Source of the DNA: a virus
Length of the DNA: 22,745 nucleotides
Reading direction: 5' to 3' (one strand)
IMG/VR virus record: IMGVR_UViG_3300050821_005170
Coordinates: 1-22,745 of that record
In this document: positions 4,110-8,493 of the stretch, piece by piece
How the letters are laid out: each line of letters opens with the position of its first letter
How positions within the stretch are numbered: position 1 is the first letter of the stretch
Notes under the pieces: generated by a model
Told to the model about the DNA's origin: nothing
Database searches by the model: none
The model's input: only the letters and a program-made list of their open reading frames with translations
Translations under genes and position numbers: made by a program

Positions 4110-5048
4110 TTATTCTGCTTCAGCAAGCCTTGCGAACTCTGCGTAAGCGCTTCCATCTTCTCCAGGAGTCTCTGAAATTGCATCCTTGATTTCTCGGTCC
4201 ATTTCAGCTTCGGTTGGTGGAACGTCATCTTCCACTTTGGCTTGAGCCGCTCTGGCTGGCGCACCAGTTGTTCCAGCCGCACCCAAAACCTTATCCAAGC
4301 GCTTCTTTAACTCATCATAAGTCTTGAACTTATCTGGAGCTACTTCTGCCTTGAGACTGTAAAGATCCTTCCAAAGTTTTTCGATCTTAGCATCATCGCC
4401 TCCAAATATAGGAGACGGCGCTGCGAACTCAGACTTGTCGTAATTTCGGAAATCTCCAACTTTACGAATCTTAAGCTTGAAATCCGCTCCTTCCCAGAAG
4501 TCAAACGCATTGAATTTAACTTCATCTGGATCCACATATGATCCTTCTTCTCTATTGGTTTCCATACCAAGCTTATCTTTGATCTTATCCATAATCTTGG
4601 TGCCATACGAATACAAGAAATGCTTTCCTTCGTTGGCTGGATTACCAGCATCCTTCACAACCCAAATATTGCTGATATAATTCAACTTACGCTTACGTGC
4701 GCTAGCAATTTCTCGATTTGCCTTCACTCCAGTATCCCAAAGCGCCTTATTGATTTCAGAAACCGGATCATCAAGACCAATAGTCGTCAAAGAGTTTTCA
4801 ATATACCATCCACCTGGACCTTGAAATGCATGAGTCCACAAAGTTGAATAATCTGGTGGTGGAATGTCGTCAGCCATATCAATGGCTGGACCCATCAAAA
4901 AACGAATTACAGCAAAACCATTACCTGCTTTATCAACAGTTGGTTGCCAATAGCGTTCATCGCGGACGAATTTTCTGTTTTGTTGCTCCAGAGCTTTCTG
5001 AAGTCTTTCGGCTGAATTGCCTTTGCGTAGTTTTGCAAAATCTACCAT
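4110..5048 (-). CDS. 32: Single-stranded DNA-binding protein, gp32-like
   Basis: A 312-residue homologue of T4 gp32, which coats single-stranded DNA in replication, recombination and repair. The N-terminus is basic (KLRKGNS, like the LAST-type cooperativity motif). The central OB-fold region carries 'GPGGWYIENSLTTIGLDDPVSE', 'NYISNIWVVKD', 'FLYSYGTKI' and 'FDFWEGADFKLKIRKVGDFRNYDKSEF', patterns I associate with cyanophage/far-T4 gp32. The C-terminal ~45 residues are acidic, as in the T4 protein-partner tail. It contains no cysteine at all, so the zinc site of T4 gp32 (three Cys and one His) is absent. The start has GAGGAT 6 bases upstream. Just upstream, a small 5-bp hairpin (about 5097-5113) lies in the 79-base leader; T4 gp32 controls its own translation through leader structure, but I cannot show that here. 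Confidence 0.93.
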   Translation of the reverse strand: MVDFAKLRKGNSAERLQKALEQQNRKFVRDERYWQPTVDKAGNGFAVIRFLMGPAIDMADDIPPPDYSTLWTHAFQGPGGWYIENSLTTIGLDDPVSEINKALWDTGVKANREIASARKRKLNYISNIWVVKDAGNPANEGKHFLYSYGTKIMDKIKDKLGMETNREEGSYVDPDEVKFNAFDFWEGADFKLKIRKVGDFRNYDKSEFAAPSPIFGGDDAKIEKLWKDLYSLKAEVAPDKFKTYDELKKRLDKVLGAAGTTGAPARAAQAKVEDDVPPTEAEMDREIKDAISETPGEDGSAYAEFARLAEAE

Positions 5049-6681: not shown

Positions 6682-6915
6682 TCAATCTCCAGTCGGCAAT
6701 CTAGAATCTCTACCTCCAGGCAAATAATGAAGCGCCTGTGCTTCCACTTTAAGTTTGGCTTTAAGCGATGGAGTGATGAGTTTCTTAACTACATCGCTTT
6801 CAACTCCGGTTTTTTCACAATACTGAACCAGAGCTTCGAGATGAGATATGTTTTGGGTATTGGCAAGACTTTCGACTGCTTGGGAGAATTTGGTTTTATC
6901 GTCAATTTTGGTCAT
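6682..6915 (-). CDS. 33: Late-transcription coactivator, gp33-like
   Basis: A small (77 aa) helical protein with the pattern I associate with phage late-transcription coactivators: a helix, then 'LEALVQYCEKTGVESDVVKKLITPSLKAKLKVEAQALHYLP', then a short tail ending 'RLPTGD'. In T4, gp33 bridges RNA polymerase, the gp55 sigma factor and the sliding clamp to activate late promoters. The longest frame starts with TTG at 6948. ATGs occur at 6939 and 6915. I chose 6915 because it leaves a short overlap with the previous gene, but no ribosome binding site is strong. Confidence is limited by the short, low-complexity nature of the family. Confidence 0.6.
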   Translation of the reverse strand: MTKIDDKTKFSQAVESLANTQNISHLEALVQYCEKTGVESDVVKKLITPSLKAKLKVEAQALHYLPGGRDSRLPTGD

Positions 6916-7141
6916 AGTAATCTTTACCGCATTCGACATTTCTGACAAGTATTTTCAATCTATCATTATCCATAAGAATCGTTCCAGCACAATTATCGCT
7001 GTGACTACCACGTCTTACGGTTACCGTTTCAGCACGCCACCTCGTATTATATATGTCCATACAATCCAAACAATCTTTCGATGGACGTTTGCCTTGATAT
7101 CTTGGGTGTTTCTTACAAGAGAGGATAATCGCAAATGACAT
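6902..7141 (-). CDS. Small Cys/His protein, putative zinc finger (79 aa)
   Basis: A 79-residue protein with an N-terminal Cys9-x2-His12 and Cys24-x2-Cys27 set around a basic Pro/Lys/Arg loop, followed by 'DIYNTRW'. Such a compact Cys/His pattern is common in small conserved phage proteins and suggests one zinc ion. Two more Cys residues follow (51, 71). The longer frame to 7189 runs back toward the tmRNA gene; I chose ATG at 7141 because AAGGA lies about 6 bases upstream. It overlaps the gp33-like gene slightly and is the first protein gene after the tmRNA, so may be on the same transcript. Function unknown. Confidence 0.65.
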   Translation of the reverse strand: MSFAIILSCKKHPRYQGKRPSKDCLDCMDIYNTRWRAETVTVRRGSHSDNCAGTILMDNDRLKILVRNVECGKDYYDQN

Positions 7142-7194
7142 AATGTATCCTTGGGAAAAGATTGGTGGATGATTGGATAATAAGGACACCCACC

Positions 7195-7348
7195 GAAACC
7201 CCAGACGAAATCAGGCTGCTAGAGCAAGCTCTACAAACCCTTCATCGAATGCGCTATCGTTTGCATTTAACGTTTTGTGCTGCTTAGGGCAGTCACCAAT
7301 CCGGTAGCCAATGAGTTATGCCGCGCCCAATCGAAACTGTTCAGGCCC
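7195..7348 (-). ncRNA. tmRNA coding (5') piece
   Basis: It begins at G1 (7348) with GGGCCTG and the D-loop-like AACAGTTTCGATTGG. It then has a GGGC...GCCC segment that could form the first pseudoknot, the resume codon and tag frame, and a G-rich end. The right end is an estimate, since only the beginning is fixed by pairing. Confidence 0.85.
7211..7264 (-). other. tmRNA tag reading frame ANDSAFDEGFVELALAA
   Basis: From the resume codon GCA (7264-7262) the frame gives the 17-residue peptide ANDSAFDEGFVELALAA and then TGA. The AND beginning and the hydrophobic LALAA end are the marks of bacterial tmRNA tags; the terminal LAA is the ClpXP recognition end. TTAAAT stands just before the resume codon, an A-rich upstream context like that used for frame setting. 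Confidence 0.9.
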
Positions 7349-7351
7349 ATC

Positions 7352-7416
7352 AAAAGTGCACGCCATTGATTATCAAGAAACGACCCGACATATGATCTCC
7401 AGGCTCGTGCACTTTT
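7352..7416 (-). repeat. Inverted repeat linking the two tmRNA pieces
   Basis: AAAAGTGCACG (7352-7362) and CGTGCACTTTT (7406-7416) are perfect 11-base inverted arms around a 43-base loop. They sit directly outside the acceptor stem, so the precursor would be a long near-continuous hairpin. Removing it would give the mature 5' end at 7348 and the CCA end at 7416, by RNase P and 3' processing as in known permuted tmRNAs. Confidence 0.85.
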
Positions 7417-7500
7417 GGTGGACCTGGCGGGTATCGCAACCCGCGTCTTGAACACCTTTAGTCAGAAGTTTACTACCATTCAACCTTATATAGTTTAGAC
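7416..7500 (-). ncRNA. tmRNA acceptor (3') piece
   Basis: This piece carries the T-arm (GCGGG, loop, CCCGC), the 3' half of the acceptor stem, discriminator A and encoded CCA. Upstream is 'TGACTAAAGGTG' and 'AATGGTAGT', comparable to the conserved segment before the T-arm in bacterial tmRNA. Part of it can pair with ACTCATT in the 5' piece to make helix P2. The T-loop is TTGCGATA, eight bases rather than the usual seven (alternatively a six-base-pair stem with a six-base loop). The exact 5' end is not visible. Confidence 0.85.
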
Positions 7501-7513
7501 TCGATTTCTGTAA

Positions 7514-8218
7514 TCAACAAGCACTAAATCTCAGAAGTCTATATTGGAGTAAATCACCCCTTTCACGAATAGGAATTGGTGCTGTTGCAATTGCAGTGAT
7601 TTGGTTTCCCAAATCAGGTTCACGAAACCCTATTCCATGTATATTCCGTTCTCTAAGATGAATTTGCGTCTCTATCAAGGCGTCTTCGTCCTTAACACCA
7701 ATCACCGTGAAATACAATTCACGACTTTGTTCCCAATCAATTCTATTTTGATCACGCAAATCGTATCCTAATTGAAAAGCCGCGTGCATTCCTTGAACCG
7801 CTTGATACTCTGGTGAAATATCCTGGCGAACAAAAATGTAAACGTATTTCCTATTGAAATATTCGTCACACTTATTACTATCAATCCAAAGTGATAACAT
7901 CAACCTTTCGTATTTTATTTTTCTATCTATCCCAAGACTGGCTATTGGCACTCCCAGAACGGTTCCTTTACAAGTATCATGTCGAGCCAGTGCAATAGCC
8001 TGTTTAAGACCTTGTAGCGGTTTATAACCATTATCCAACGCATTTTTATTGGTTCTTGGAACAAATGCTTTCAAAAGGTCACGAAGTACCAAATCAATAC
8101 ATTTATTTTCATCATCAGATTTATGCATCACGCGTAGAATAGCACGCTCTACAACGTGAGCTGAAGTCAACATTTTATTTTTGTGGAGATTCTTCCACGT
8201 TTTATTTAGATTCAACAT
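7514..8218 (-). CDS. Pth2-like domain protein upstream of the tmRNA
   Basis: A 234-residue protein. The first ~120 residues are mostly helical, with no recognised domain. The C-terminal ~95 (about 124-216) look like a peptidyl-tRNA hydrolase II fold: a strand 'YVYIFVRQDIS', a helix 'AVQGMHAAFQLG' (compare AQCxHAA in Pth2), a helix around 180-190, then 'FREPDLGNQITAIATAPI'. The usual Pth2 catalytic lysine in the first loop is not evident, so hydrolase activity is uncertain. The longest frame begins with TTG at 8338. I chose ATG at 8218, which has AAGGG 7 bases upstream; ATG at 8290 is an alternative. Its stop is 14 bases before the tmRNA acceptor piece, a striking placement because Pth and tmRNA both deal with stalled or dropped peptidyl-tRNA. 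Confidence 0.6.
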   Translation of the reverse strand: MLNLNKTWKNLHKNKMLTSAHVVERAILRVMHKSDDENKCIDLVLRDLLKAFVPRTNKNALDNGYKPLQGLKQAIALARHDTCKGTVLGVPIASLGIDRKIKYERLMLSLWIDSNKCDEYFNRKYVYIFVRQDISPEYQAVQGMHAAFQLGYDLRDQNRIDWEQSRELYFTVIGVKDEDALIETQIHLRERNIHGIGFREPDLGNQITAIATAPIPIRERGDLLQYRLLRFSAC

Positions 8219-8225
8219 TAGATTA

Positions 8226-8273
8226 CCCTTACAGTTGTTTGATTGAAATAGATTCAAAAATAACTGTAAAGGG
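8226..8273 (-). promoter_or_regulatory. Hairpin sequestering the ribosome binding site of the Pth2-like gene
   Basis: CCCTTACAGTT (8226-8236) pairs with AACTGTAAAGGG (8262-8273), with one bulged A. On the - strand the downstream arm contains AAGGG, the ribosome binding site for the ATG at 8218. The stem could hide that site and make translation conditional. The bases also fall inside the longer alternative frame, so the fold could be incidental. Confidence 0.4.
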
Positions 8274-8334
8274 CGGCCCACGAATTTCATAATATACCTA
8301 TATGTCTGGTAAAATCTACAAGCCTTCGTAATCG

Positions 8335-8493
8335 TCAATCATTTGGATCTCGCAATCTCAATATTTCAAGTCTAGCCCGTTTTAGAAGATCAGCCAAATC
8401 TAGCCGTTCTGACACTTCGCAATAAGTTCCACTTCTAACATCTCTTTCAAAACCTAATAGGTCATCCACAAGACATTTATCTGGAGCGTTCAT
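8335..8493 (-). CDS. Small hypothetical protein (52 aa)
   Basis: ATG at 8493 begins two bases after the stop of the barrel-like gene (TAA AT ATG), typical of coupled translation here. The 52-residue product is charged and mostly helical, rich in Asp, Glu, Arg and Leu, with two Cys. GGAG lies about 12 bases upstream. No family recognised. It fills the gap between two well-supported genes in the same direction. Confidence 0.6.
   Translation of the reverse strand: MNAPDKCLVDDLLGFERDVRSGTYCEVSERLDLADLLKRARLEILRLRDPND

Follow-up and report, generated by a model that had tools for sequence, protein, structure and literature searches.

A circularly permuted, two-piece tmRNA gene upstream of gp33 in a T4-like phage

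The stretch of DNA analyzed here (the window) is an IMG/VR contig of 22,745 bases that encodes a baseplate hub protein (phrog_150), gp32 (phrog_224), gp33 (phrog_254), an RNA ligase, a nicotinate phosphoribosyltransferase, and a cell wall hydrolase. Since the contig carries the baseplate hub, gp32, gp33, and other phage genes, it is assigned to a T4-like phage. Within this gene set, positions 7481-7164 of the minus strand encode a circularly permuted (two-piece) tmRNA. An earlier reading, made from the sequence only, had proposed such a phage-borne gene at 7195-7500; this extent was close, with the molecule and its spacer actually running from about 7481 to about 7164 on the minus strand. The features of the locus are as follows.

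4110..5048, minus strand: gp32-like single-stranded DNA binding protein (phrog_224, E 1.6e-95)
6682..6948, minus strand: gp33-like late promoter transcriptional regulator (phrog_254, E 7e-19)
6902..7141, minus strand: small ORF (MSFAIILSCKKHPRY...) with an AAGGA ribosome-binding site, adjoining the tmRNA downstream
7164..7348, minus strand: coding RNA piece, with acceptor 5' strand (7348-7342), UUUCGA (7336-7331), tag, and 3' hairpin region
7211..7264, minus strand: tag reading frame from GCA to TGA, ANDSAFDEGFVELALAA
7330-7323 and 7307-7303, minus strand: P2 3' strands of the coding piece, UUGGGCGC and CUACC
7349..7415, minus strand: intervening sequence of 67 nt, presumably removed by processing
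7416..7481, minus strand: acceptor RNA piece (tRNA-like 3' part), its 5' end approximate, from the RF04321 alignment
7444-7427, minus strand: T-arm of the acceptor piece, with an 8-nt T-loop, UUGCGAUA
7477-7473 and 7455-7448, minus strand: P2 5' strands of the acceptor piece, GGUAG and GUGUUCAA
7486..7493, minus strand: CTATATAA, a box resembling a -10 or late-promoter element that precedes the acceptor piece, candidate promoter for the tmRNA itself
7514..8338, minus strand: ORF directly upstream of the tmRNA, start codon uncertain, with a predicted C-terminal Pth2 (peptidyl-tRNA hydrolase 2) fold

Read along the minus strand, the order of parts is a P2 strand, the T-arm, the acceptor 3' strand, ACCA, the 67-nt spacer, the acceptor 5' strand, UUUCGA, the P2 partners, and the tag frame. 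Thus, the acceptor piece with its encoded CCA (7418-7416, after the discriminator A at 7419) precedes the tag-coding piece, as the sequence-only reading had it. The 7-bp acceptor stem of that reading is also present at the positions it gave, GGGCCTG (7348-7342) pairing with CAGGTCC (7426-7420); the third pair, G7346-U7422, is the alanine mark G3-U70 and is identical in relatives. The tag frame is clean, running from the alanine resume codon GCA at 7264 through 17 amino acids that end in LALAA to the stop codon TGA at 7213-7211. The 3' end of the coding piece probably lies near 7164, to judge from conservation in two relatives (L250 and L272) and from the end of the alpha_tmRNA alignment.

A covariance-model search (cmscan) agrees with this direct reading. 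RF04321 (tmRNA_permuted), a merged model covering all permuted forms (PMC11915505), matches over its full length at 7477-7211 on the minus strand with 115.9 bits (E 2.2e-22, cut-off 47), a score far above chance. A strong match to the alphaproteobacterial model had also been named as possible support. The window reaches 54.9 bits with that model (RF01849), barely above the cut-off of 50, and it scores higher, at 76.0 bits, with the beta model (RF01850), where it stays under the cut-off of 84. The beta model is the best one in close relatives and is passed by L250 (94.1 bits) and L183 (103.7 bits). ARAGORN, the other program proposed as a check, did not report a tmRNA gene in the window; in L250 and L183 it does report one, as permuted. 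The miss is possibly due to the T-loop, which is 8 nt instead of 7 in the window and in an identical copy (L184), on an intact stem. The loop is 7 nt in L250 and throughout the 65 aligned sequences other than the window, a uniformity to be read with the fact that the scan demanded a 7-nt loop.

Several lines of evidence indicate that the gene has been kept under selection. The tags of the relatives, ANVSAFEEVELALAA (L250), ANDTAFDEDEGFVELALAA (L272), and ANDDDAFDLPEMALAA (L183), preserve the frame: indels are codon-sized and many differences are synonymous, including, among the four phages, changes at the first base of leucine codons and exchanges of TGA and TAA stops. Furthermore, in a set of 66 phage sequences, which the window entered by hand because the extraction script required a 7-nt T-loop, the P2 helix is paired in 78.8% of cells versus 52.1% after shuffling. 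This helix was not used to select the sequences, and its second position is paired in 66 of 66 by four pair types. Pairing in the acceptor piece is likewise kept across the set, the counts for the acceptor stem and T-stem being partly selected for and hence not independent. In addition, the spacer of the window is closed by an inverted repeat, AAAGTGCACG / CGTGCACTTT, which begins directly after CCA and stops 4 nt short of the acceptor 5' strand. Among phage spacers of at least 30 nt, a closing helix of at least 7 bp beside the presumed cleavage sites is found in 48 of 56, where shuffling predicts 0.67.

Other layouts were encountered during the survey. In L183 (G003:17720-17920, minus strand), L189/L191, and L198, just 3-5 nt separate CCA from the acceptor 5' end, so that the acceptor stem would close on a tiny loop. 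In L218, L240, L242, and L243, the tags assigned automatically (ATEK..., ATEI...) seem incorrect, and AAATGCAAACGATAA lies much closer to the acceptor than usual; these may represent a shortened subtype of permuted tmRNA.

The sequence-only reading had pointed to a misassembled bacterial fragment as the explanation that would undo it. The window is a 22.7-kb fragment, and no support for this explanation was found. A second, independent assembly (G001) is identical to the window over 11,048 bases. A related phage of 176,865 bases (G131) carries a 79.8% identical tmRNA in the same gene order (PagL-like, Pth2-like, tmRNA, gp33-like, AAA, gp32). Given the exact match of G001 and the syntenic tmRNA of G131, misassembly of bacterial DNA into a viral contig is extremely improbable. 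No identical bacterial sequence was found either: neither a 23-base core nor a looser split pattern, both searched as exact patterns only, occurred in 84,980 species genomes (GTDB), and plasmids and E. coli genomes gave no match. Among 50,697 phage records, megablast revealed no close nucleotide relatives, and blastn gave just a 33-base match. Elsewhere in the window (9767-9693, minus strand) lies a tRNA with anticodon CUA, labeled Pyl by ARAGORN, with 56.6 bits to the Rfam tRNA model and C at position 33; it is possibly an amber-reading tRNA. As for amber recoding by this tRNA, TAG is the stop codon of only 4 of 43 likely genes, and no wholesale reassignment is apparent.

The permuted form had been thought unusual for phages, a view that does not hold. 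Among 133 unique phage tmRNA structures, 53 are two-piece molecules, of which 50 belong to marine or aquatic phages, and the authors of that survey noted one upstream of gp33 in phage Melnitz (PMC9004378). Moreover, RF04321 finds one in 7 of 7 named phages fetched by similarity. Thus, two-piece phage tmRNAs are already known, and the window RNA adds a well-preserved case. Methylophilales phage Melnitz (MZ577097) is T4-like as well; its permuted gene also lies upstream of gp33 and gp32 and is itself preceded, at a greater distance, by genes for a cell wall hydrolase and a PDDEXK nuclease, as in the window. It differs from the window RNA in that alpha is its best model (106.7 bits), its tag is ANDNYVPVDYALAA, and a glutamine riboswitch follows, whereas the window scores higher with beta than with alpha, has a longer tag, and gave no riboswitch hit. 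The tmRNAs of Stenotrophomonas phages DLP_6 and Marzo (RF04321, 136.8 and 119.0 bits) are permuted and beta-like as in the window, but they lie inside tRNA clusters rather than beside gp33. Stenotrophomonas is not among the lineages to which permuted tmRNA is usually assigned. One-piece phage tmRNAs share with the window RNA only that they are phage-encoded, not the permutation.

Some of these phage records hold further features. The permuted tmRNAs of DLP_6, CcrPW, X1, and Tunturi_4 (L256, L257, L259, and L260) are unannotated in their records. In Tunturiibacter phage Tunturi_4, the gene (43532-43941, minus strand) adjoins gp53, a release-factor gene with an RF-1 domain, possibly another ribosome-rescue pairing. 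Brevundimonas phage Bajun has, near its tmRNA, a full-length match to GOLLD RNA (L265 550-968, minus strand) of 104 bits, under the cut-off of 150.

The gene had also been taken for a strong clue to the host. However, an alphaproteobacterial origin is unsupported, as the window scores higher with beta than with alpha, and the named carriers infect hosts as diverse as Stenotrophomonas, Xanthomonas, Caulobacter, Brevundimonas, Methylophilales, and Tunturiibacter (an acidobacterium). The permuted form is consequently a weak host marker.

The position of the gene recurs from record to record. RF04321 scores above its cut-off in 9 of 50 records picked by gp32 similarity and in 51 of 80 picked by a 14-base tag motif. 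Among 50 tmRNA-bearing viral records, several of them near-duplicates and those fragments without gp33 being uninformative, a gp33 gene is present in 33 and, in 32 of them, follows the tmRNA on the same strand at a distance of about 0.1-5.1 kb; 24 of these 32 cases come from 41 records chosen by the motif alone. This address, conserved in many divergent T4-like phages, bears on the idea that the gene was recently captured from a host, or is decaying, and serves no purpose in the phage. Acquisition of tRNA-like genes by phages is frequent, and integration of temperate phages into ssrA is common. Yet the place beside gp33, the conserved coding of the tag, the covarying helices, and the absence of the core from the 84,980 species genomes (exact patterns only) all speak against such a capture, which is judged very unlikely.

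A motif recurs upstream of the tmRNA and may serve as its promoter, as its position and sequence suggest. TTGAC-N16-22-TATA is found there in 28 of 63 phage loci, versus 0.17 expected, and TATAAATA, which is similar to a sigma70 -10 box as well as to the T4 late promoter, in 23 of 63. The window has the degenerate box CTATATAA alone, without the full TTGAC-N16-22-TATA. Across the whole window, the T4 late-promoter consensus TATAAATA shows no excess (36 versus 36.8 expected); for this reason, only the positional signal upstream of tmRNAs was used.

The neighbor on the other side is the ORF at 8338-7514, whose N-terminal half is long and helical and whose C-terminal half is modeled as a Pth2 fold (pLDDT 73). 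Searches of Pfam, NCBIfam, and PDB sequences gave nothing useful, so the ORF is named by its predicted fold and weak PHROG hits only. The top PDB match of the predicted fold is Pth2 (E 3.7e-4), and each of the six PDB matches with E below 0.001 is to Pth2 or a Pth2 homologue. Homologues adjoin the tmRNA upstream in L250, L272, and G003, making four related phages with the window. The three ORFs that were compared all have EYQ-VQ, in which the lysine of the usual Pth2 motif, GK-AAQ, appears to be replaced; consequently, activity of the ORF is uncertain. From the predicted fold and the conserved position, rescue functions may be clustered at the tmRNA locus. A broader model is offered tentatively and is somewhat doubtful: the permuted tmRNA would have belonged to the T4-like late-transcription cluster, upstream of gp33, for a long time and would have its own combined sigma70/late-type promoter. 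In one lineage it would be paired with a Pth2-fold protein, the phage thereby providing both peptidyl-tRNA rescue and ribosome rescue.

Taken together, these results have led to the hypothesis that the window encodes a functional two-piece tmRNA (ssrA) that works in trans-translation with the SmpB and alanyl-tRNA synthetase (AlaRS) of the host, a reading given a probability of about 0.8. By analogy with known tmRNA biology, a single precursor would be made as part of the gp33-gp32 transcript, from a promoter immediately upstream, or in both ways. The hairpin of the spacer would draw the two acceptor strands together, and host RNase P and 3'-end enzymes would excise the spacer, yielding an acceptor piece that ends in CCA (7416) and a coding piece that starts at G7348, joined by the acceptor stem and P2. 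The G3-U70 pair would allow charging by host AlaRS, and host SmpB would bring the tmRNA to ribosomes that have stalled on broken mRNAs. With its LALAA end, the tag would then mark the nascent chain for host proteases, and the phage would presumably benefit from recycled ribosomes during infection. SmpB (PF01668) was found in 0 of 18 phage records, many of them fragments, and in 10 of 14 control genomes; its absence from the 22.7-kb window, itself a fragment, is weak evidence when taken alone.

Two features of the window count against a functional tmRNA, its 8-nt T-loop and its degenerate own promoter. The main rival to a working molecule is a decoy or competitor, an RNA that binds SmpB, AlaRS, or stalled ribosomes and thereby blunts or redirects host trans-translation. 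There is a precedent in the tmRNA of mycobacteriophage DS6A, phage-encoded like that of the window but neither permuted nor supplied with a tag, whose expression in E. coli inhibits the tmRNA of the cell itself (PMC11915505), and the 8-nt T-loop could conceivably lower activity. However, a decoy needs neither an intact tag, nor the usual LALAA end, nor the protein-coding constraint seen in relatives, all of which are present here. The decoy is therefore regarded as improbable, and the functional tmRNA is preferred.

Permuted tmRNAs thus prove to be common in T4-like phage records, where they occupy a constant genomic address, a pattern that points to a role under selection during infection. 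The tmRNA of the window enlarges this known but little-studied class.
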